IMG/VR virus record: IMGVR_UViG_3300025466_000147
Location: 1 to 27,248 of that record
Reading direction: 5' to 3' (one strand)
DNA length: 27,248 nucleotides
DNA from: a virus
The translations under genes and the position numbers were made by a program. How positions within the stretch are numbered: position 1 is the first letter of the stretch; the number at the start of each line of letters is the position of its first letter. The notes below the pieces were generated by a model. It was not told the DNA's origin, searched no databases, and saw only the letters and a list, made by a program, of their open reading frames with translations. Positions 5,509 through 27,149 of this stretch are shown in pieces.

Positions 5509-6207
5509 TTATCCGTTTGCTTTGCTTAAATTAGTCAAAGTTTGAATTCGCACAGTATAGTCGATTTGAATTAATCTGTTTAAACTTTTTTGTACAGGCA
5601 TAAACACCACGTGCGTTAATAGTAAACCCGTTGATGTTAATCCACTTGTGCCATCAATACTGCGACCACGTAGACCTAGTTCATCAAACACATAGGTACC
5701 ATTTAAATTTTGGCTGTTATCAAAATTTGATTGGCCGTTGGGCTCGCCGTAGTCTAGTAGACAACTAACTAAAATATCGGTATACACAGTACCAGGAATA
5801 TGAGCCACTGTCATTTTATTGTTAAGTGGATTAATATTTGCGGCTGCTGTATTATCAACAATTTTACTATATGTGGGATTATACAAATTAGCGTTTTGTC
5901 CCACAGTATTAGTAGGCAAGTATGTAATGATACCAGTGGGATCTACACTGGTTCCACCGTTGCCGAAGGTCATTTCGTAGATATAGTTTTCACCTTTGTT
6001 GGCTAAGGACCAGGCCAATGCTTGACTAAAGTTTTCATAGTGAATAGCGTTGGGTTTATCAATATAAACATCGCCGGACTCTGGATCAAAAATCTTAATA
6101 TGCCCACGAACATAGATTCCGGTGCTTTCGTCTGGTTGTTTTAGTATATTTTCCACTGCTGTTTCCTCTAATTTTTTTGTATTTTCATTCATATCAGTAT
6201 TTATCAT
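5509..6207 (-). CDS. Conserved virion structural protein, probable baseplate/fibre connector
   Basis: 232 aa from the ATG at 6207, or 227 aa from the ATG at 6192. I recognise the type from marine T4-like phages but know no assigned function. The core begins at about residue 30: YVRGHIKIFDPESGDVYIDK, then NAIHYENFSQALAWSLANKG, YEMTFGNGGT, VYTDILVSCLLDYGEP, YVFDELGLRGR and LTHVVFMPVQKSLNRLIQID. There are no membrane segments. It sits between the giant wedge-like protein and the fibres, which suggests a connector between baseplate and fibres (inference). The ATG at 6207 has AGGT 8 nt upstream and would serve read-through mRNA. A late-promoter motif overlaps codons 2-4, so a transcript from it could only use the ATG at 6192. 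Confidence 0.75.
   Translation of the reverse strand: MINTDMNENTKKLEETAVENILKQPDESTGIYVRGHIKIFDPESGDVYIDKPNAIHYENFSQALAWSLANKGENYIYEMTFGNGGTSVDPTGIITYLPTNTVGQNANLYNPTYSKIVDNTAAANINPLNNKMTVAHIPGTVYTDILVSCLLDYGEPNGQSNFDNSQNLNGTYVFDELGLRGRSIDGTSGLTSTGLLLTHVVFMPVQKSLNRLIQIDYTVRIQTLTNLSKANG
6197..6204 (-). promoter_or_regulatory. Late promoter (ATAAATAC) inside the 5' end of the 232-aa gene
   Basis: The minus strand reads ATG-ATAAATAC-TGAT-ATG. The motif lies between two in-frame ATGs (6207 and 6192). With +1 six bases after the ATAAATA core, transcription begins at the A of the second ATG, giving a leaderless mRNA and a protein five residues shorter. No Shine-Dalgarno precedes the second ATG. 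Confidence 0.65.
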
Positions 6208-16753: not shown

Positions 16754-19700
16754 TTATGATATTAAAGTAGTTCCAAGATTAAGTTGTGCGGCTGTTACTG
16801 CACTAATGATATCCACATTGTCGACAGTAGCGGCGCTGGTAATGATTTCCCACGGCTCAGCATTGATTTGAAAATAGTTACCAAATACTAAATTATCGTT
16901 GGCCGGTACAATTAAGACGCTAGCAATATTAGGTACTAAAGTAGTGTGTAAGTATGCGGCTAACTCACTGAAGTAAAACGATTCACCAAAATCCCAATTA
17001 TTAATATCAAAATATGTGTTAATTGCATTGATAACCTGTGTCTTAACTTCGTTAGCAGTAATACTAACCGCAGGGTTAATAACTACCTGGAAACGAGCAC
17101 GTAAGTTAGCATCAGCTTTGGCACCAAATAATGGCTTGAATTTAGCGGGATTATAAATTAAACTATCGCTAGTGGCTTTATAATCGTCGAGTTTACTATA
17201 GGCAATTTCTAAACTACTTGAAGTTGGCGGCACCGGTTCTGAGATAGTGCCAGTTAAATCACGCAACCAGTTTAGATAACTTATGGCATATTCAGCAGTT
17301 AGAATATATAAGTCGATTAAATTTACACTTGTTGGATCTATACGATTTTTACCAGGACTATTATGTTTGTATTGGAAATAAAGTCCACTACGACTAACGG
17401 CTGTATTTGCTACAATAGAATATAAATCTGGATTATCGGGCACACCGGTCATTTGAGTTTCCGGACTACTTACATATACCTGTTTAGGATTAACATATCC
17501 GTCGGCCTCAGTATGAACATTGTAAATATTCCATATAACATCTTGTCCAATTGGTATACTTGTATTTAACACCGGATTAATCTTTAAAATCTTAATAAGA
17601 TCTTGAATTGTAGATCCAAGTCGACTATCATAAACTTTAACAGCAGGGTCAAAGTAGAAATTTGTTTCTGCTGCGCTAGCAAATACATAAGACAAGTTAC
17701 GAGACTGAACATTATACAATCCAGCATTATAAGTAAACTTTAATAACCAATTGGTGCTTGTACCAATATCAGCTGGTTTGATATTGGTCCATTGTTGATT
17801 TACTTGATCATATATTAGACCAAAATTAACCTTGGCAGCAATTTGAGTAGCAATGGTTGTAATTAGTGTACCGCTTAGATCATTTTTAAATAAAGGTATA
17901 ATAGATTTTACAACAGACCCAGTGGGTACGTTCATACCAAAATATACCTGTGTATTGCTTACTGTATTAGTAACTGATGAATAGAATGTTGTGGCATTGG
18001 CATGCACGTTAGTTAAGAACTGTATGCTTGCTCCGGTTGCTACATATTTTAAATTACCGCTTGCACCTGTACTAACATGTATTACATTTCCGTTATAAGT
18101 TAAGTTGCCATAACTGCTAGAGGTTGAATTGCCTGTTTGAACAAAAGTAATATTACTGTGTGTTGGCGTATATCTTTCGTAGTTAGCATAATAGTAGTTA
18201 GACATTTCTGTACTATTAATAATAGGAATGATGTCATTGTAAATTGCTGAATAGATATCGTTTGTAGTTAAGAAACTAAATGTTTCAGAACTAATAGAAC
18301 TATTAGTAGAAATCATCCCATCGGCAGCAAAAATATTGGTGCTACTAAAACTACTATTTGGATCAAGAGTATCTAAATATAAACTTACACCAGAACTAAT
18401 ACGGTTAACTGCTTTGATTTTTTGTATACTAGTAAATGATGTCAGCGGGAAGATTTGATAGTCTTCGGCAGTAATCATACGATTTTGTGTGTAGTATTGC
18501 TGTGGTGCGTAGGTTTTAATACTGTTCAAACTTTGAGTAGCAGTAGCGTTGGTTACAGTATATTTTAAACTAGCAACAATCGTTAAAGTTTGATTTACAC
18601 TATTGACATCAATGTAAGGAATAGCCACAGTAACACTTGACATATCGTCGGGTGTTACGCTATAGGCATTGCCGTTACTAGTGCGGAAATAAAATCTAAA
18701 TGCTCCTTGCGGAATATTAGCAAACGAGCCATCGCCAAAGACTAAATTAACTTGATCGTTGTTTAATGTATTAACCTGATAGAGGTTTTTATTAGTTGAT
18801 TGATTATAAACAACATTGATGCCAGGTAATGCTGGTACCTGTGCCCATAGAGTTTGAACGCTGCTATTGACATTTAAACTATACAACCAATGATCGGTGT
18901 TATTAATATTGTTTGTAGTAACAGGAACAAAATTATTTGGAATAGCATTTTGAATAGTAAAGTTTGTAGCTTGTAGTGTGCCTTGCTTAAAGTACAAGAA
19001 GAAACCTGTGTTGTTACTACCATTACCATTGTTATCGTTACGATATAGAACGTTAAATTGTCCAAGGGCAGTTGGGTCTCGTTCGTAAATGTATGTTTGG
19101 CCCAGTGTTGTTGCACTAACCGCTTCAAAGCGTGTTGTTGTATTCTGAATAGGAACTGCAAATGGTGCAACAGGTAAACTGTTGGTATTTAAACTTACAC
19201 TATACTCATCGGTCTGCACACCATTGATTACTTGACTATTACCGGGTTTACCAATGGCTTGCCCAGTAACTAATGCAGAATTTAAAACTGTGGTAAATTG
19301 CTCTAACCAATTATCGTTAGTTACATCATTCCAATTAATAACAGTATTAGACAGATTAACGCCATTGCTATCTGTAACACTTTCAGTAGTACTGATACTA
19401 TCAAATTTAATTAGACCACTTGCACTAGTTGTGCGAGTAGGATTGTAGCTCAACATACGAGCTAATTTTAATATACTGTCACGACGCTGTGCTGTATCAA
19501 TAAAGTTTTCACGTGCATTTAAATCTGTACGGAAAGCAAGACTTTGTCCTAAGAATGCAATCATATCTATTAGGGCTAGATATTCTGAGCTTTCTAGGAA
19601 ATCATTAAATGATTCTGGGTAGTAAGTCTGCAAATAGTTAATCATACTATTACGCAGAGTTTCAAAGTCGTAGCTAGTAAAATCGGCGTTGGTAAAGCTC

Positions 19701-19762
19701 TGATAGACTTTAGTCCAGTCCTGATTTACTAAAAGATTTGATTGACGTGTGGTTTGTGCCAT
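16754..19762 (-). CDS. 6: Baseplate wedge protein gp6
   Basis: 1002 aa (T4 gp6 is 660 aa). The N-terminus (about 10-115) has the gp6 signature: NQDWTKVYQSFTNADFTSYD, LRNSMINYLQTYYPESFNDF, SSEYLALIDMIAFLGQSLAF, RTDLNARENFIDTAQRRDSI. The C-terminus (about 880-960: LRARFQVVINP, VINAINTYFDINNWDFGESF, YFSELAAYLHTTLVPNIASV) matches the baseplate-J-like end of the family. In T4, gp6 dimers interlock to form the inner ring of the baseplate around gp25 and gp53, and the neighbours here fit that. The extra length is in the middle, which is Asn/Thr/Ser-rich. The ATG at 19762 has AGGU 8 nt upstream; both lie inside a predicted hairpin with a late promoter in its loop. Confidence 0.93.
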   Translation of the reverse strand: MAQTTRQSNLLVNQDWTKVYQSFTNADFTSYDFETLRNSMINYLQTYYPESFNDFLESSEYLALIDMIAFLGQSLAFRTDLNARENFIDTAQRRDSILKLARMLSYNPTRTTSASGLIKFDSISTTESVTDSNGVNLSNTVINWNDVTNDNWLEQFTTVLNSALVTGQAIGKPGNSQVINGVQTDEYSVSLNTNSLPVAPFAVPIQNTTTRFEAVSATTLGQTYIYERDPTALGQFNVLYRNDNNGNGSNNTGFFLYFKQGTLQATNFTIQNAIPNNFVPVTTNNINNTDHWLYSLNVNSSVQTLWAQVPALPGINVVYNQSTNKNLYQVNTLNNDQVNLVFGDGSFANIPQGAFRFYFRTSNGNAYSVTPDDMSSVTVAIPYIDVNSVNQTLTIVASLKYTVTNATATQSLNSIKTYAPQQYYTQNRMITAEDYQIFPLTSFTSIQKIKAVNRISSGVSLYLDTLDPNSSFSSTNIFAADGMISTNSSISSETFSFLTTNDIYSAIYNDIIPIINSTEMSNYYYANYERYTPTHSNITFVQTGNSTSSSYGNLTYNGNVIHVSTGASGNLKYVATGASIQFLTNVHANATTFYSSVTNTVSNTQVYFGMNVPTGSVVKSIIPLFKNDLSGTLITTIATQIAAKVNFGLIYDQVNQQWTNIKPADIGTSTNWLLKFTYNAGLYNVQSRNLSYVFASAAETNFYFDPAVKVYDSRLGSTIQDLIKILKINPVLNTSIPIGQDVIWNIYNVHTEADGYVNPKQVYVSSPETQMTGVPDNPDLYSIVANTAVSRSGLYFQYKHNSPGKNRIDPTSVNLIDLYILTAEYAISYLNWLRDLTGTISEPVPPTSSSLEIAYSKLDDYKATSDSLIYNPAKFKPLFGAKADANLRARFQVVINPAVSITANEVKTQVINAINTYFDINNWDFGESFYFSELAAYLHTTLVPNIASVLIVPANDNLVFGNYFQINAEPWEIITSAATVDNVDIISAVTAAQLNLGTTLIS

Positions 19763-19804
19763 ATTATTTTACCTATATCAAGTATTTATCGGTTAAAATA
19801 ATAT
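19761..19804 (-). promoter_or_regulatory. Hairpin that hides the gp6 ribosome binding site in read-through mRNA
   Basis: In mRNA sense, AUAUUAUUUUAACC (19804-19791) pairs with GGUAAAAUAAUAU (19773-19761), giving 13 bp with one bulged A and a 17-nt loop. The 3' arm contains the GGU of the Shine-Dalgarno and the AU of the gp6 AUG. The loop contains the late promoter (19789-19783) and its expected start (about 19777). A transcript entering from gp25 can fold; one started in the loop lacks the 5' arm and cannot. There is no U-tract after the stem, so it is not an ordinary terminator. Confidence 0.75.
19782..19789 (-). promoter_or_regulatory. Late promoter (ATAAATAC) before gp6
   Basis: The minus strand reads CCG-ATAAATAC-TTG. 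It lies in the 48-bp gap between gp25 and gp6. The expected +1 is near 19777, giving a 15-nt leader that keeps AGGU and the ATG but lacks the 5' arm of the surrounding hairpin. Confidence 0.75.
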
Positions 19805-19810
19805 GTGTAG

Positions 19811-20188
19811 TTAATTTGTAGTTAATGAGCTGGCATTGCGATTAAAATTTAGCAGTAGGGTATCTGCTTGATTACTAGGTACGTAAGACAAGGAAATTTC
19901 TATTTGTATGCCGTTGGTTTGTTCAACCACAGATATGTTAATAACTTGTAATCTAGGGTCGTATTTAACAATACGCTTGATATCATTGGTAATAATGTCA
20001 CGGGTAGTTTCGTTTAATGGCTCAAATAATTGGTCCCAAATAATAGTGCCAAATCCAGGTTGCATTAGTTTACTACCTTTTCGTATATTAAAGTAGTTAA
20101 TTAGGTCTTGTTTGGCTAAAGCATAGTCCGTAAGGCTATACTTTTTTTTATTAACTAGTGTAGAGAATCCGCGATATATAATGGTCAT
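19811..20188 (-). CDS. 25: Baseplate wedge protein gp25
   Basis: 125 aa, close to T4 gp25 (132 aa). It matches the GPW/gp25 family: a short N-terminal strand (IIYRGFSTLV), then DYALAKQDLINYFNIRKGSK (21-40), the conserved PGFGTIIWDQLFEPLNE (44-60), TTRDIITNDIKRIVKYDPRL (61-80) and a C-terminal beta pair (VINISVVEQ, IQIEISLSYV). In T4, gp25 forms the inner wedge core with gp6 and gp53 and is related to the sheath-initiator GpW/TssE proteins of contractile systems. The ATG follows a late-promoter motif by 4 nt and no Shine-Dalgarno is visible. The 5' end lies 7 nt after the stop of the preceding gene. Confidence 0.93.
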   Translation of the reverse strand: MTIIYRGFSTLVNKKKYSLTDYALAKQDLINYFNIRKGSKLMQPGFGTIIWDQLFEPLNETTRDIITNDIKRIVKYDPRLQVINISVVEQTNGIQIEISLSYVPSNQADTLLLNFNRNASSLTTN

Positions 20189-20191
20189 ATT

Positions 20192-20199
20192 GTATTTAT
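20192..20199 (-). promoter_or_regulatory. Late promoter (ATAAATAC) abutting gp25
   Basis: The minus strand reads CA-ATAAATAC-AAT-ATG, and the motif overlaps the TAA stop of the preceding 220-aa gene. The expected +1 (six bases after the ATAAATA core) falls at 20187, within one base of the A of the ATG, so the mRNA would be leaderless or nearly so. Confidence 0.65.
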
Positions 20200-20858
20200 T
20201 GGCTTAAAACTACTACCGTGTAACGTCCGCTGTTATAGCTGTTTATACCAGATCCTATGTTGTTATATCTCCAGGCCCATGCACCTGTGCCGGTTGGATC
20301 GCTAATAGTTGGTCCTGCACCAACGCCTAACGTCCATGCTACATACATCATACCGGCTACTACATCAGCAGTATCACCGGCAAGTATTGTGCCTACATCA
20401 ACCGCAGTTAGATAAATGTCAACTAGTCGCTGATATGCTAAGTGCTCTTGTGCAGTTGCGGTAGATAAAAAATTATTTAAGCTGGTGATGTTATAAAAAT
20501 AATTTTGATAAGCATTAATACCAGTATTAATAGTAATAGGTTGCCAACTGTGAACATAATTTACACAATCTGTTCCATATTCTGTGTTGGACCCGGTGGC
20601 TAATAATCCATAGGCTTCTAATACCTGTGTTGTAAATTGATATCTGCCCAATTTATTGTTACTACCAATAAGTTTATAGTCCCAACTGCTTAAATCATAA
20701 GCAATCTGTGCCTGCAGGTTACGTAATTGTACAGAACTCAGTGCGCCAATATTGGCCCAAGCTGGGGGTTTAGGAGGTAAGTCGGCACGACCTAACCAGC
20801 TGACTGGCAATGGGTTTGTAATCGGTATTCCGGCTGCTGATTGAATTCCTGCGTCCAT
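20196..20858 (-). CDS. Putative tail-associated peptidoglycan hydrolase (transglycosylase-like motif)
   Basis: 220 aa. Residues about 42-86 hold SSVQLRNLQAQIAYDLSSWD, YKLIGSNN and KLGRYQFTTQVLEAYG. The G-(R/K)-YQF block after a Y.LIG..N segment resembles the transglycosylase/lysozyme-like motif in which GRYQF follows a catalytic Glu. Here no Glu is at the expected place; Asp55 is nearest. The C-terminus (about 168-212: GMMYVAWTLGVGAG, WAWRYNNIGSGINSYNSGRY) also fits such hydrolases. It lies directly after gp5, which lacks the lysozyme domain that T4 gp5 has, so this may supply cell-wall cleavage as a separate protein (inference). AGGT about 9 nt before the ATG, at the end of gp5, supports the start. 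There is no signal peptide, as expected for a virion part. Confidence 0.6.
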   Translation of the reverse strand: MDAGIQSAAGIPITNPLPVSWLGRADLPPKPPAWANIGALSSVQLRNLQAQIAYDLSSWDYKLIGSNNKLGRYQFTTQVLEAYGLLATGSNTEYGTDCVNYVHSWQPITINTGINAYQNYFYNITSLNNFLSTATAQEHLAYQRLVDIYLTAVDVGTILAGDTADVVAGMMYVAWTLGVGAGPTISDPTGTGAWAWRYNNIGSGINSYNSGRYTVVVLSQ

Positions 20859-20862
20859 TATC

Positions 20863-22389
20863 TTAACCTAAAAGTTTTCCAGCAACACCGGCACCAATAC
20901 TTAATGCTCCGCCAACTAGTCCCGCAGTTCCGCTGGCTTTGGCTGGTGCCGGTCTGAGCCCAGTTCCGGGATCAATCCAAGGTTCGTGGGCCGGAACTAC
21001 TGTACAAATACTTCTAACAGCACCCGGAGTATATACCCAACTTGTGCCGGCAAACATAACGTCGGGTAACGATATTCCAGTTTCTGGCAATGGTGGCATG
21101 GGTGGTATTGGTGCGTAAGGGTTATTTAGATTGACTAATGCGCCAGACAAATACGCTGGGCCAACTGCGCTTAATTTTAATGCGGCACCTGCTCCTACGT
21201 TTACTGCGCCATCGGCGCTTAAAGTTAACATACCAATTGTGCTCATCGAACACGCTACTTCTGCACTAATTGCCACAGATGTTAAAGATTTTATTGTTAC
21301 GCCCATTTCGCCATTGATATGAACTGCTCCGCCAGAGTTAATATTGACTTGACTGTCGCTATGAAAATTTAATGCTCCCTCTGATCGAACATTGAATCCA
21401 GCAATGCCAAACATGTTAATACTGCCATCACTACTAAATTCTAGCCATTGGTTGCCTGACGCACTGGCAATATACAATACTCCCTTGCCGCCTTTTTCTG
21501 TTTTGTCAGCAACGTCATTCATTAAGATCTGGTGGCCACCGGCTGTACGTAATCTAATTAGTTGATCGTTACCGTCTTTATCACCATCGTCCATGACAAA
21601 ACTATGTCCGCCTACACGACCAATAACTGTTTGACTAGAATTAACATTTTTTGCGCCTGGCGCTTGTGGTGTATTTGTGGCGCTACGACCCGGTGTACTA
21701 ATACCATATACATTGCTAGGCACTTCGCGTAGACTACTTGAACTTATTGCGCCGCGTACAGGATCACGATCTAGACCTTGTATAACATAACGCATTGACT
21801 GTACAGGATGTGCATACCGAGGTGTATTTTGTATACCATCGGCATTAAATGCTGTACCTTCTCCTGTGCTGTATTCAACTACCGGCAGTAAACTATCTGA
21901 ACTAGCATATGAAGATAACGGGCCAGAACTAACTGGATCTATTTCAGTCTTTGATTGTCCGCCGATGTTACGAGCATTACCTGGTACCATATGATGACTA
22001 GGACTATCGTATATGCAGGCAAACCAATAACCGCGATTACGATCACCTGCTGCAAAAGTTACCAACACTTTATTACCTACATCTGGCGGAACACACCACA
22101 TACCATAACTCATGCCGCTGCTAAATGCACCCGGGGTATCGGTTTGTGTATCTGTGCCAAATGTTGTTCCGTAGAAGGGACTAGCGTAACTAACTACAAT
22201 TTGGCTGTCCGGATCTGTTTGTAGTCCGCCCCAATCTGGGATGTAAACTTGTAATTGCCCCATACGAGTGCTTTGTACATGTGCTGTTACGATCGCTTCG
22301 TACGGTCCTGGGTCTACTGTATAACCAGACTTACCATCAGCTTTTGCAGCTGGATTGGCGCCTGTTCTTTGTATTTGATTATCTGCCAT
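20863..22389 (-). CDS. 5: Baseplate spike protein gp5 (OB-fold and beta-helix, no lysozyme domain)
   Basis: 508 aa (T4 gp5 is 575 aa). Residues about 28-137 are the gp5/VgrG-type OB-fold: PYEAIVTAHVQSTRMGQLQV, YIPDWGG, GMWCVPPDVGNKVLVTFAAG, RGYWFACIYD. Residues about 255-315 (GHSFVMDDGDKDGNDQLIRL, RTAGGHQILMND, LYIASASGN) lead into a beta-helix of repeating short strands (about 318-423: WLEFSSDGSINMFG, VNINSGGAVHING, AVNVGAGAALKLSA). A Pro-rich stretch (425-435) and a Gly/Ala-rich, mildly hydrophobic tail (about 486-508) follow. The 120 residues between OB-fold and helix show no lysozyme motif. The protein is the trimeric cell-puncturing spike below the hub. AAGGA lies 11 nt before the ATG, inside the 14-bp gap after the hub gene. 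Confidence 0.9.
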   Translation of the reverse strand: MADNQIQRTGANPAAKADGKSGYTVDPGPYEAIVTAHVQSTRMGQLQVYIPDWGGLQTDPDSQIVVSYASPFYGTTFGTDTQTDTPGAFSSGMSYGMWCVPPDVGNKVLVTFAAGDRNRGYWFACIYDSPSHHMVPGNARNIGGQSKTEIDPVSSGPLSSYASSDSLLPVVEYSTGEGTAFNADGIQNTPRYAHPVQSMRYVIQGLDRDPVRGAISSSSLREVPSNVYGISTPGRSATNTPQAPGAKNVNSSQTVIGRVGGHSFVMDDGDKDGNDQLIRLRTAGGHQILMNDVADKTEKGGKGVLYIASASGNQWLEFSSDGSINMFGIAGFNVRSEGALNFHSDSQVNINSGGAVHINGEMGVTIKSLTSVAISAEVACSMSTIGMLTLSADGAVNVGAGAALKLSAVGPAYLSGALVNLNNPYAPIPPMPPLPETGISLPDVMFAGTSWVYTPGAVRSICTVVPAHEPWIDPGTGLRPAPAKASGTAGLVGGALSIGAGVAGKLLG

Positions 22390-22403
22390 TTATTGAAAAG
22401 TCC

Positions 22404-24815
22404 TTATTGTCGTGCTTGAACACCGTTGGGCAATGCGTTGGTACTCAATGGTTGTGCATATTGAGGAATAGCAACAGGTTGTGCCGCAGGCATATTAAAT
22501 GTACCAGCATTAACTGATGTTCCTTGTACTGTTGCTATAGTTGGCGATTCACTTGCCGGAGTCGATGTGCTGGTCGAACCCGCCGGAATTGGTTGTGTAT
22601 TATTGTTTGTTGAATTTTGATTATCTTGTGATTTTTTAACTGCGCTACCATCTGCGGCTGTTGCGGCTGCAGAATTTGTAACATAATCGCTGTTCATAAT
22701 TCTTACTAATTTAAGAGTCTGTTCAAACTTACCGGACTGAAACGTATTTTTAATTTGTAGGATTTTATACTGTCCGCTAAACAAACTACGATAAGTGTTA
22801 GGTTGAGGGAACGCTAGTCCCTGATTGGTCCAGTCAGTATCAATATCTAGCGGAGTATTGATAGTCAATGATGCTACTAAAGCACCAGTATCCATTCTGA
22901 TGTGACCGTATTTTGACGCAAAACTGTTTTGACTAAAGGACATCCAGTTATTGTAGTCTGAGTTTCCATTTGGGCTAGGGACGTAGAGCCAGTCATCTTG
23001 TTTAATTAAGGTTGGATCTCCAACAATTTGTAAATCAACTGTTAACATATCCCCCGATGGTTTACTATAAAGACTACGCATCATGTTAGCAGTTGTTTGC
23101 GCTGCCGGGTTATCGGTGATATTCATACCGATGTTGTCACGTTGATCATTGACAATTGACTTGTATCTTAACGGGGTTAAATTTGGAATTGCTGTCGAAC
23201 CAAAGATTCCCGAAGATGCCAATAACTGTGGACTCAGTAAAATAGTTCCGCTATTAGCTAATAATCCATCAACTCCTGTACTAGGACTTGTTTGACTAGC
23301 AGCATATTGGTTAGGATATGTCATAACCGCAGTATACCAGGTTGTATCAAAATTTATTTTAAGATCTAGTATGTCAATATTTTTACCGGTGTACAAATAG
23401 TTATAGGCTTTGAGCGTTGCTGGACGACTATCTGACAATAACGGAGCAGCTGGGTGGTTGGCATCATAGACCGCATATTGATGTATACGATAGGCAAATG
23501 CGACTGGATAATTATTTCTTACGTTATCAAATACTCCATTGGTCACTGTTCCTGCGCTGTCGGCACCGGCAAATGTTGTTTGGCAAGTAGTTTTAAAAGT
23601 ATTCAATACCTGCGTCAGTGTAGTTTGTGTTTTTTGCTCGCTTGCTGTTTGTAGGTCAAGTCCTAATTGATTAATTAGATAATCAGATTGTATCAATACA
23701 CGATTAATAACATCAGTAATTTGCGTACCTGCAGGAATGCTAAAACTTCCCTGGCTAGCATCAATACTAATACCCTTAGGATTAGTTTTTCCTAGGCTTA
23801 GTTGTTTGTCATAGACAATTTTACTTTGACGAATAGCAGAATCAATATCAAATGAAATTGTATCGGCATATTGTTGTTTTCCATCAAGAACTTCAAGTTG
23901 CCAAAATGCGTTCAACGCACTTGCCAAGGCATCAAAGAATCCACCAACGGTTCCGGCTACAATAGGTAAGTTCTTGGGTACTGTAGAATGCTCGGGTCTA
24001 TAACTTTGATGTCCAAGTGCATAATAATTAATTTTATATTCGGCGCCCTTATTAGTTACATTAACTTTTACACCAGTAAATCTAATAGGAAAGCGTTTTC
24101 TATAAAGAGCTGTTGTACTTGCGGGCAACGGATTACCCGAATCATCATATCCAGTAAAATCTAACTGTAACATATATGGTTGTTGCAAATAGTTATATCC
24201 CGGAGTGTTAATAAATGATGCCTGCACTAAACTATCAATAAATGTTACACCATATGGTTCTAATATAGTCAGGGCTCCATCAATCATGTTACTGCTTTTA
24301 CTTGATGAGTTAAGACCAACCACTGTGTTAAATTCAACATCTTGAATATTGTAATTTAAACCAAACTGTGTAGGTAGTCGTCGACCAGGAAATAGTCCAG
24401 AATCCTCAGCTACTACATAACTAGTTGGGCCCAGTGGATATGCTAGTGCTGTACCAGCATCTGCTCCTGATATTAAATTATTATAATCATTAACATCTAG
24501 CCACCAAAGACTCCATGCATAGGTCCAACTAGCAAACTCATGCATAGGATTAGGAATTTCCTGTGTAGCCATTGGTGTTTTTATACTATTAACAACTGCT
24601 TGAATATTATTGTTGTTGTTAGATCCGCCATTGCCGCCGGTTGGGTTAAATCCATTAATAGGAATATTTTGTAAATTTTGAACTGGTTGGAGGTTTAATT
24701 GTGCCATTGCCTGTTGCGGGGTTAGGCCAGATTGAATTAATGCATTGTATTGTGCTTCTTGCTCGGCTGTAAACCCGCCGGTGTCTGTGCTAGAAATAAC
24801 TGTTGGGTCAGCCAT
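22404..24815 (-). CDS. Baseplate hub protein, gp27-like (803 aa)
   Basis: It lies between gp53 and gp5, where marine T4-like phages place a large hub protein. The N-terminus is a helical peptide (15-45: FTAEQEAQYNALIQSGLTPQ) and a Gly/Asn linker (57-70). The domain from about 88 has FASWTYAWSLWWLDVNDYN, then LTILEPYGVTFIDSLVQASF (182-201) and PYMLQLDFTGYDDSGNPL (213-230), a pattern seen in hub proteins that bind the tail tube. Residues about 350-375 (SFSIPAGTQITDVINRVLIQ) and the C-terminal FSGQYKILQIKNTFQSGKFE, QTLKLVRIMNSD (about 680-710) resemble gp27/VgrG-type hub folds. The last 90 residues are Gln/Ser/Thr/Pro-rich and probably disordered. T4 gp27 is 391 aa, so this is about twice as long. 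GGGA lies about 10 nt before the ATG, 4 nt after the stop of gp53. Confidence 0.72.
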   Translation of the reverse strand: MADPTVISSTDTGGFTAEQEAQYNALIQSGLTPQQAMAQLNLQPVQNLQNIPINGFNPTGGNGGSNNNNNIQAVVNSIKTPMATQEIPNPMHEFASWTYAWSLWWLDVNDYNNLISGADAGTALAYPLGPTSYVVAEDSGLFPGRRLPTQFGLNYNIQDVEFNTVVGLNSSSKSSNMIDGALTILEPYGVTFIDSLVQASFINTPGYNYLQQPYMLQLDFTGYDDSGNPLPASTTALYRKRFPIRFTGVKVNVTNKGAEYKINYYALGHQSYRPEHSTVPKNLPIVAGTVGGFFDALASALNAFWQLEVLDGKQQYADTISFDIDSAIRQSKIVYDKQLSLGKTNPKGISIDASQGSFSIPAGTQITDVINRVLIQSDYLINQLGLDLQTASEQKTQTTLTQVLNTFKTTCQTTFAGADSAGTVTNGVFDNVRNNYPVAFAYRIHQYAVYDANHPAAPLLSDSRPATLKAYNYLYTGKNIDILDLKINFDTTWYTAVMTYPNQYAASQTSPSTGVDGLLANSGTILLSPQLLASSGIFGSTAIPNLTPLRYKSIVNDQRDNIGMNITDNPAAQTTANMMRSLYSKPSGDMLTVDLQIVGDPTLIKQDDWLYVPSPNGNSDYNNWMSFSQNSFASKYGHIRMDTGALVASLTINTPLDIDTDWTNQGLAFPQPNTYRSLFSGQYKILQIKNTFQSGKFEQTLKLVRIMNSDYVTNSAAATAADGSAVKKSQDNQNSTNNNTQPIPAGSTSTSTPASESPTIATVQGTSVNAGTFNMPAAQPVAIPQYAQPLSTNALPNGVQARQ

Positions 24816-24819
24816 GCTG

Positions 24820-25122
24820 TTATAGTCCCAGTGCTTTTTGAACTACTGCTTTAGTTGGAATGTAGATAATATTAGGTGCAACAAAATTGAATATTGGGTC
24901 TATTAAGGCATTAGGATTACGAACAGCAAACACCCACCATAGGTTAGTGTCTTGATATAAATCATATGCCAATAAATCTGGGCGTAGATTATACGGCGGG
25001 TCGATTTGATAAAGGGCATCTGTTACATCTGCAGGAATAGTTTTTGAATTCCAAATATCTAAAAATTGACCCCATTGTGGTGTTCCGTGATATGGACTTG
25101 ATGTTGCATAAGAAGTTGACAT
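24820..25122 (-). CDS. 53: Baseplate wedge protein gp53
   Basis: 100 aa, about half the length of T4 gp53 (196 aa). Residues about 25-90 hold the family core: NSKTIPADVTDALYQIDPPY, NLRPDLLAYDLYQDTNLWWV, FAVRNPNALIDPIFNFVAPN, IIYIPT. The YDLY.D..LWWV..VRNPN...DP.F pattern is LysM-like and typical of gp53 and related tail proteins. In T4, gp53 clamps gp6, gp25 and the central hub. The ATG overlaps the TAA stop of the gp48-like gene by one base (TAATG), and GGAGGA, the strongest Shine-Dalgarno in the window, lies 8 nt upstream, so translation is probably coupled. Confidence 0.85.
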   Translation of the reverse strand: MSTSYATSSPYHGTPQWGQFLDIWNSKTIPADVTDALYQIDPPYNLRPDLLAYDLYQDTNLWWVFAVRNPNALIDPIFNFVAPNIIYIPTKAVVQKALGL

Positions 25123-26114
25123 TATAAGAATCCTCCAGCGCCCGGCGAACCGCCGTTAATTGCTGTTTGTGTTGCGCCAAAAGAACTGGCGGTGCCACCC
25201 GATCCTGGTGCGTTAATCAATGCGCCACGAGCAAAGTCGCTAAGGTTAAATCCTTGACTTTGTGCCAGTCTGCTGTAAACTGGTTGTACGGTCAATGATA
25301 TTGTACTAGTTGTCGGTAAGCGTGTACTATTTAATACAGGGCGAGTAACCCCGGGATTATAATTAAGTCCAGGTTCGGGAATATCCATGTAGTCTACCGA
25401 GTCTGGCATAGTATGACTAAAGCTGGTTACAACACAAGGAACACTCGGCAAATAGTATTCGCCATAACCATTTAAGTAAACAATCGGCGGCGGATTACCT
25501 GCCAGTGAATCTCTACCAAAGAACATCTTAGTTAGCGAACGGAAAAAGTAAATTGTAGCCAAAAGATATTGACCTTCATTTACGTTTTGTACGGTAAATT
25601 CTCCATTAATTGAGATTGCACCAACTTCTGAATTTTCATAAAAATATTGTGTATAGTTACTGTGTGTTAATTTTTGTGCGGCATAGTTAGCCGAGTGTTG
25701 AACTGTAACTGTTGGAGTATACGGAAACACCACACCGACGCGGCTTTGACCACCTGACCCAAATAAACTATTAATTCCTTGTACTACCGCCGACGTCGAA
25801 TTATTAGCGACTTCTGTACGTAGCGGACTTAATAAATTATTACTTGGATCATTGTAAAAATAGTTACTATTTGGTGCTAGACTAATCCGTACACGCCAAT
25901 CATAGCTGGCCTGCGGATAATTAACCACAACTTGCGGGCCAACGGTTCTATTGGTATATTGAAACATAGTAGCAACATTTTGACGACTCATCATTGGGTT
26001 TAATCCAACAGAACCCTGGAGGCTGTTGGTTACGCTATTCCAAATTTGATTGCCGAAGCTACCGCTAGGGTTAGTTACCGTTGTTTGTAAAGGCTGATTA
26101 GGTAGTACTGGCAT
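25122..26114 (-). CDS. 48: Baseplate tail-tube cap/initiator protein, gp48-like
   Basis: 330 aa from the ATG at 26114 (T4 gp48 is 364 aa). The N-terminus (1-75) is Asn/Thr/Gln-rich with MSRQNVATMFQYTNRTVGPQ (42-61) and YDWRVRISL. The core (126-200) has VGVVFPYTPTVTVQHSANYA, YFYENSEVGAISINGEFTVQ and GQYLLATIYFFRSLTKMFFG, conserved in marine T4-like gp48 homologues. It ends in a Gly/Ser-rich tail (300-330). In T4, gp48 and gp54 sit above the hub and start tube polymerisation; no separate gp54 is seen here. The ATG has AGGA 6 nt upstream. An in-frame GTG at 26144 would extend it by 10 residues, but it lies upstream of the late promoter and has no Shine-Dalgarno. Confidence 0.8.
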   Translation of the reverse strand: MPVLPNQPLQTTVTNPSGSFGNQIWNSVTNSLQGSVGLNPMMSRQNVATMFQYTNRTVGPQVVVNYPQASYDWRVRISLAPNSNYFYNDPSNNLLSPLRTEVANNSTSAVVQGINSLFGSGGQSRVGVVFPYTPTVTVQHSANYAAQKLTHSNYTQYFYENSEVGAISINGEFTVQNVNEGQYLLATIYFFRSLTKMFFGRDSLAGNPPPIVYLNGYGEYYLPSVPCVVTSFSHTMPDSVDYMDIPEPGLNYNPGVTRPVLNSTRLPTTSTISLTVQPVYSRLAQSQGFNLSDFARGALINAPGSGGTASSFGATQTAINGGSPGAGGFL

Positions 26115-26132
26115 ATAGTTCCTGTTTATACA

Positions 26133-26140
26133 GTATTTAT
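26133..26140 (-). promoter_or_regulatory. Late promoter (ATAAATAC) before gp48
   Basis: The minus strand reads GA-ATAAATAC-TGT, and the expected +1 is near 26128. This leaves a 14-nt leader with AGGA before the ATG at 26114. It is the first late promoter of the minus-strand block and lies back to back with the plus-strand gp55 promoter, about 46 bp away. Confidence 0.75.
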
Positions 26141-26185
26141 TCACTTAAATTAACGGCTAATATAAAGAATAGTTTTTTAAAAAGG

Positions 26186-26215
26186 TTGACCATATGGGGT
26201 TAAATATGTTAGTAT
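26186..26215 (+). promoter_or_regulatory. Host-type (sigma70-like) promoter for gp55
   Basis: TTGACC (26186-26191, 5/6 match to TTGACA) is followed by 18 bp and TAGTAT (26210-26215, 4/6 match to TATAAT), with TGT directly before the -10 (extended -10). An AT-rich stretch lies just upstream. The expected +1 is about 26222, giving a 19-nt leader that contains AAAGGA (26227-26232), 8 nt before the ATG at 26241. Confidence 0.65.
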
Positions 26216-26240
26216 GTGCTAACTTTAAAGGAACCAAAGG

Positions 26241-27149
26241 ATGGCTCGTAACAATTATCTAAATAATAAAGATATTCTAAAAGAGATTCACAAAAGCAAA
26301 AACACCTATTGCTATTACACTAGTCCAGACGTTGCAGATTATGATATGATCCTGCCCGACGCTAGTAAAATAAACAAAAAGAACATATTACAAGCTCGAA
26401 AAGATCGTGCTGTCCGTTTGGCTAAACTAGCACACGAAATTGCTACTGCTGATGGTACCAAGCGTAAGCTAGATGAGTTCGAAATTAAATTAAAAGATGT
26501 AGCTGACAGCGATGTGGTGTTCCGTGTTATGACCTGGGAACATGTGCCCATTGATGATGTTAAATCACGCAAGGCCGCTGTTAAAGCTCTAACGGAAGAA
26601 GAAGGTGGTGCTCCTCGTTCCGAATACGACGACGACGAGCTAGACTTAGCCGGAAATACCAAATACGTTAAATGTAACTTTCCACCATTTGAGCACTATA
26701 AAATTAGTGAAGAGGGAGAACCTGTTTGCGTGGGACGTAGCCATTGGAAGGGCGGACTCAAGGCCGGTAAGTTTAGCAAGGATCACGGTAAGATGACTCC
26801 TAAGCTGGCTCATATGTTTATCAAACTGTGTGAGCGTTATGCTACTCGCAGTAACTGGCGTGGTTATACATACAATGATGAAATGCGTAGTCAAGCACTA
26901 CTACAGTTAAGTCAGATTGGTCTACAGTTTGATGAATTCAAGAGTCAAAATCCGTTTGCTTATTACACAGCCGCAATTACTAACTCATTTACCAGGGTAC
27001 TTAATATTGAAAAGCGTAATCAAAATTTGCGGGACGACATACTTGAAATGAATAACTTAACCCCAAGTTATACACGCCAAGGACAAGGCGGCGGCGCTAA
27101 CTTTAGTGCTAGTAGTGGCAACTTTGGTGGTGGAGGGGACGACGATTGA
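26241..27149 (+). CDS. 55: Late-transcription sigma factor, gp55-like, enlarged (302 aa)
   Basis: T4 gp55 is 185 aa and directs host RNA polymerase to TATAAATA late promoters. Residues 4-17 (NNYLNNKDILKEI) match the T4 gp55 N-terminus (YVNNKELLQAI). The sigma-region-2-like part is at about 186-262: TPKLAHMFIKLCERYATRSN, WRGYTYNDEMRSQALLQLSQ, then QFDEFKSQNPFAYYTAAITN, SFTRVLNIEKRN, matching T4 FSGYT..W..EM and KNPHAY.TQA...F....K.E. Between them, residues about 20-185 are an insert with no T4 counterpart; it includes a charged helix (47-70), an acidic patch (128-135) and PPFEHYKI, GRSHWKGGLKAGKFSK. The C-terminus (about 281-302) is Gly/Asn-rich and ends in Asp residues; the T4 SLDFLYE clamp-binding peptide is not present. 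Homologues of this long form occur in marine T4-like phages. Confidence 0.85.
   Translation: MARNNYLNNKDILKEIHKSKNTYCYYTSPDVADYDMILPDASKINKKNILQARKDRAVRLAKLAHEIATADGTKRKLDEFEIKLKDVADSDVVFRVMTWEHVPIDDVKSRKAAVKALTEEEGGAPRSEYDDDELDLAGNTKYVKCNFPPFEHYKISEEGEPVCVGRSHWKGGLKAGKFSKDHGKMTPKLAHMFIKLCERYATRSNWRGYTYNDEMRSQALLQLSQIGLQFDEFKSQNPFAYYTAAITNSFTRVLNIEKRNQNLRDDILEMNNLTPSYTRQGQGGGANFSASSGNFGGGGDDD

Follow-up and report, generated by a model that had tools for sequence, protein, structure and literature searches.

When the start codon of a gene lies in one arm of a hairpin and a late promoter lies in its loop, the question arises which of the RNAs running through the gene can be translated, and to what end. 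Such an arrangement is found before a gp6-like baseplate wedge gene in a virus fragment of 27,248 bases (the whole stretch of DNA analyzed, hereafter the window), which carries a T4-like run of baseplate genes on its minus strand and a gene for a gp55-like late sigma factor on its plus strand (Table 1). The genes located 5' of gp6 are gp53-like, hub/lysozyme, and gp25. The gp6-like protein has matches of up to 79 % identity among uncultured viral contigs, while its cultured relatives, at roughly 33-40 % identity, are mostly jumbo phages (RaK2, 121Q, GAP32, Munch, PA5oct, and Atu_ph07). Megablast revealed no near relative among phages, GTDB genome contigs yielded no relative, and no Rfam family matched at gathering score anywhere in the window. 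A literature search with thin coverage of subscription journals revealed no comparable control of gp6.

An earlier, sequence-only reading of this DNA held that mRNA reading through from gp25 is silent for gp6 while mRNA started at the late promoter is translated, as in T4 genes e, soc, and 49. The analysis presented here leads to a related answer, to which we assign a probability of roughly 0.7: gp6 has its own late promoter, and the hairpin restricts translation to the RNA made from it, most likely insulating gp6 from gp25.

The hairpin and the late promoter at the gp6 start

The stem is formed on the minus strand between CAUAUUAUUUUAACC (19805-19791) and GGUAAAAUAAUAUG (19773-19760), with a single bulged A at 19793; both the Shine-Dalgarno GGU and the entire gp6 AUG are buried in it. 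The bulge had been noticed before, together with a stem of 13 bp; the stem is in fact 14 bp long, as the G of the AUG is also paired. The earlier placement of the late box in the loop and of the GGU in the 3' arm is borne out by sequence and fold alike. The stem is AU-rich, the loop of 17 nt holds the box, and 5 nt separate the 5' arm from the gp25 stop codon TAA (19813-19811).

Table 1 Features of the gp6 locus and its surroundings in the window
Feature	Position	Strand	Basis or remark
gp6-like baseplate wedge gene, 1002 aa	16754..19762	-	phrog_10646 baseplate wedge subunit, E 6.5e-278; gene under control
Hairpin 3' arm GGTAAAATAATATG	19760..19773	-	Sequence, fold; Shine-Dalgarno core AGGT (19774-19771) to ATG (19762-19760)
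Expected late transcription start, ~6 nt past box	19777..19778	-	Inferred from T4 rule (PMC2988020)
Late promoter box ATAAATA of gp6, in hairpin loop	19783..19789	-	Sequence; kept in relatives
Hairpin 5' arm CATATTATTTTAACC	19791..19805	-	Fold; wholly upstream of late box
gp25 baseplate wedge gene	19811..20188	-	Pfam GPW_gp25 E 6e-10; PHROG baseplate wedge
gp25 late box, 4 nt before gp25 ATG	20193..20199	-	Source of read-through RNA into gp6
Late box heading upstream baseplate gene run	26134..26140	-	Box search
gp55-like late sigma factor gene	26241..27149	+	phrog_12791 E 2e-81, phrog_234 E 1e-22; divergent from baseplate run

A 71-base piece folds with a minimum free energy (MFE) of -11.4 kcal/mol (z -3.0), which was equalled by 2 of 200 dinucleotide shuffles. 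The stem is retained in a context of 121 nt, albeit with a z of only -1.1. Of 1,586 AT-rich placements in the window, which overlap one another, 6 match the -13.5 kcal/mol of the duplex between the two arms. The single-sequence fold statistic is thus modest, and the weight rests on the comparative evidence.

The box has the character of a gp55-type late promoter: a TATAAATA-like box, here GATAAATAC, is present with no -35 consensus, and the start would follow the rule known from T4, in which the late box lies about one helical turn ahead of the transcription start (PMC2988020). ATAAATA occurs six times in the window against a chance expectation of 17.4, and all six copies are on the minus (late) strand. 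The box (19789-19783) is located downstream of the 5' arm, so that RNA begun there is predicted to lack this arm altogether, as the sequence-only reading had it. When the fold was computed with and without the bases upstream of 19777, as that reading had proposed, the stem was present in the full RNA and lost upon cutting; the RNA cut at this expected late +1 has an MFE of -1.3, with the Shine-Dalgarno sequence free of the stem.

In this phage, opening of the start site is predicted to cost 11.2 kcal/mol in read-through RNA vs 2.1 in RNA started at the box. Taken as predicted masking and unmasking, the claim that gp6 is silent on read-through mRNA and translatable on late mRNA is supported with moderate confidence. 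In the proposed mechanism, gp6 would be transcribed from its own gp55-type late promoter. RNA reading through from gp25 or beyond would carry the 5' arm, which would fold onto the Shine-Dalgarno sequence and the AUG, and translation of gp6 would not be initiated on such RNA. Transcripts begun at the box would start past the 5' arm and leave the gp6 start open.

Other late boxes in the window are placed differently with respect to their genes. Those at 20199-20186, 6204-6190, and 4332-4318 (minus strand) are followed by an ATG after only 4 or 5 nt, so that the late RNAs of gp25 and of two further genes are expected to have little or no leader. Among relatives, such a distance was observed in 72 of 121 box-to-start spacings, mostly at gp25, and permuted heptamers gave no peak at 4-5 nt. 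The main exception is gp6, which has a leader and a Shine-Dalgarno sequence. The first listed start codons of the open reading frames at 5509-6207 and 25122-26144 (minus strand) overlap late boxes; their likely starts are the ATGs just past these boxes, at 6192 and 26114.

Conservation and co-variation of the arms

The comparison was made on 105 non-redundant gp6 upstream regions of uncultured relatives, 36 of them close and 69 distant. Every one of the 105 has a late-type box (mostly ATAAATA) upstream of gp6, at a median of ~20 nt from the start, and in the first 80 relatives the box and the facing arms can be seen by eye. Predicted opening costs in the close relatives average 11.5 kcal/mol for read-through RNA vs 2.1 for RNA from gp6's own promoter, with a difference of more than 3 kcal/mol in 36 of 36; the corresponding costs in the distant relatives are 9.0 and 2.7 kcal/mol. 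Exchanging the upstream sequence for that of another phage lowered the read-through cost to 6.8 (close) and 7.0 (distant).

Swapping of arms between loci showed that own arms pair better than swapped ones: the observed total was reached in 0 of 20,000 permutations with 51 non-redundant loci, in 0 of 100,000 with only the closest 37, and in 0 of 20,000 with all 105 (z -11.6). Reversal of the 5' arm, used as a control, gave a z of -4.2 over the 105 loci; as this is below zero, composition and kinship account for some, albeit not most, of the pairing signal. The signal was also obtained separately for the inner and the outer arms (5 and 7 of 50,000, respectively). An alignment of 28 sequences has two-sided changes in 9 of 17 pairs (mean of shuffles 3.9, 0 of 500), a count that in the true register exceeds those of all slid registers. 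Examples of arms that changed together are ttgccctg/cagggcaa in L022, gtcctg/cgggac in L182, and cctacctg/taggtagaa in L062, the latter two from separate parts of the gp6 tree. The sequence-only reading had called for a search for compensatory changes in related phages; in these, the box has been kept, and so has the pairing, through changes on both arms.

Distant relatives carry quite different arms at the same place (GCCGTTTTT/AAAAACGGT and TTTTCC/GGAAA; as RNA, GCCGUUUUU with AAAAACGGU and UUUUCC with GGAAA), as would be expected if masking and not a fixed sequence is conserved. In some of them the spanning stem is weak or absent. A good spanning stem is absent from L064, L066, L070, and L075, and in L122, L131, L138, and L176 the inner stem is weakened without full compensation. 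RNAalifold gave no consensus structure on a MAFFT alignment, probably as a consequence of stem registers that shift between lineages. Counts of G-U and A-C cells revealed no strand bias (25 vs 25; 20 vs 21 in another count) and hence no sign of selection on one RNA strand.

The sequence, its predicted folding, a box present throughout the clade, and arms that co-vary form the observed basis of the model, from which we infer masking in vivo. The hairpin with its late box at the gp6 start is real and conserved.

L061 and L072 have another hairpin upstream of gp6, which encloses the late box (atatgctta/taagcatat in L061), and a second complementarity exists between TCCTG and the Shine-Dalgarno-like CAGGGA.

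Alternative explanations

The precedents cited for the hairpin are documented. The late promoters of T4 gene e are located in the upstream part of a hairpin that masks the start on long RNA, while translation proceeds from the late RNA, which is made without the 5' strand (PMC3014915). The start sites of soc and 49 are likewise sequestered by a helix (PMC3014915), and late RNAs without an inhibitory 5' arm have been described for I-TevI, I-TevII, I-TevIII, segB, and Aeh1 mobE (PMC2988022). The gp6 locus has in common with these a sequestering helix (predicted) and a putative promoter past the 5' arm, and its pairing is conserved in relatives. With the same arm measure, the values were -12.0 (z -3.4) for T4 e, -8.0 (z -3.9) for T4 soc, and -13.5 (z -3.8) for gp6, by which the gp6 hairpin is as strong as those of e and soc, and close to e in spanning energy. 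This shared anatomy (PMC3014915, PMC2988022) speaks for a timing switch of the kind described for e, soc, 49, and I-TevI, in which early or middle RNA running across gp6 would be silenced and late RNA translated.

The setting of gp6, however, makes such a switch improbable. The T4 cases concern masked late genes that are carried on early and middle transcripts (PMC2988022): e is a lysis gene masked on early RNA, soc and 49 are located on early/middle transcripts, and the homing endonuclease genes lie inside early/middle transcription units. By comparison, gp6 codes for a baseplate protein and stands within a late run, and its box is in the loop. Carriage on an early or middle polycistronic RNA is common to the known cases, although unnecessary for the mechanism, and the gene order at gp6 speaks against it. 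As the gp53-like, hub/lysozyme, and gp25 genes lie upstream and this run has late boxes of its own (26140 and 20199), read-through RNA would itself be late, and the timing part of the sequence-only reading is not supported. The gp55 gene is divergent, and the region 19500-26300 contains no convincing early promoter, with 16 sigma70-like sites vs 22 expected.

Equally doubtful is a reading in which the arms act at the DNA level, as a palindromic protein site or as an extra promoter with TATWAT as its -10 sequence, RNA pairing being secondary. Two near-invariant blocks at fixed spacing precede the variable inner arm and occupy 19820-19798 (minus strand); one, AATTAACT, includes the gp25 stop codon, and the other is C(C)ATATWATT. 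In the close clade, the CATATWATT block of the 5' arm is nearly invariant while the inner 5' arm is variable and co-varies; the block is retained even where its partner differs and is, with AATTAACT, more conserved than pairing requires. This near-invariance in the face of a varying 3' arm favors a DNA element, as do the sigma70-like score of TTAACT-16-TATTAT and the fact that G-U is not in excess of A-C. The joint change of the inner arms is, however, incompatible with a fixed protein site, the arms of distant relatives are quite different at the same place, and the -35 of the extra promoter is unconserved and lies within gp25 codons. A general upstream promoter element was rejected, since among the loci examined CATATWATW with a late box is found at gp6 only and not at other late boxes.

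That the hairpin is a terminator, a processing element, or a stabilizing element of the gp25 message, and not a translational mask, is very unlikely. XaC1, GAP32, and Munch (L082, L083, and L086), which share the gp25-gp6 order and a late box before gp6 with the phage studied here, differ from it in having, directly ahead of this box, a G+C-rich hairpin with a T run that resembles an intrinsic terminator, so the site can host termination. The stem in the window, however, is AU-rich, has a 17-nt loop and no T run after it, and its 3' arm spans the Shine-Dalgarno sequence and, in relatives, usually the AUG. A scan for intrinsic terminators (a G+C-rich stem with a T run) found none on the gp6 stem, and a terminator at this stem was rejected. 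Chance complementarity in an AU-rich spacer, to which the z of just -1.1 in the longer context might point, can be dismissed in view of the arm swaps, the pair counts, the slid registers, and the conservation across 105 loci.

A proposed role: uncoupling gp6 from gp25

There remains the purpose of a hairpin that would confine translation of gp6 to RNA from its own promoter. Because the upstream genes are also late, the likely gain is insulation of gp6, in amount and stoichiometry, from the gp25 unit, and not early silence. Such a late-on-late insulator, in which the promoter of origin decides whether gp6 is translated and the dose of gp6 is uncoupled from that of gp25, has a somewhat less than even chance of being the true purpose. 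The T4 baseplate contains 12 copies of gp6 and 6 copies of gp25 (PMC3004832). The terminator-like hairpins before the gp6 late box of GAP32, Munch, and XaC1 look like another means of stopping read-through and would serve the same insulating end.

No masking hairpin is present at gp6 of the cultured jumbo relatives. The orthologous baseplate gene 6 of T4 has a box-like sequence, TTAAATA, 9 nt before its start and no spanning hairpin by the same arm measure (E -2.2, z +1.2). Phage 121Q has a gene between a baseplate gene and gp6 (L089 432-1196) whose annotation reads group I intron-associated protein.

The device at gp6 is thus of a known kind, and its location at a core tail gene among late neighbors suggests that its purpose is likely a different one. 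The promoter-in-hairpin device of T4 extends beyond lysis genes, soc, gene 49, and homing endonucleases; in the case of gp6, it is conserved across a broad clade of uncultured phages and at a core tail gene. If insulation is indeed its purpose, phages would set the ratios of structural proteins within one late transcription unit by means of a hairpin.
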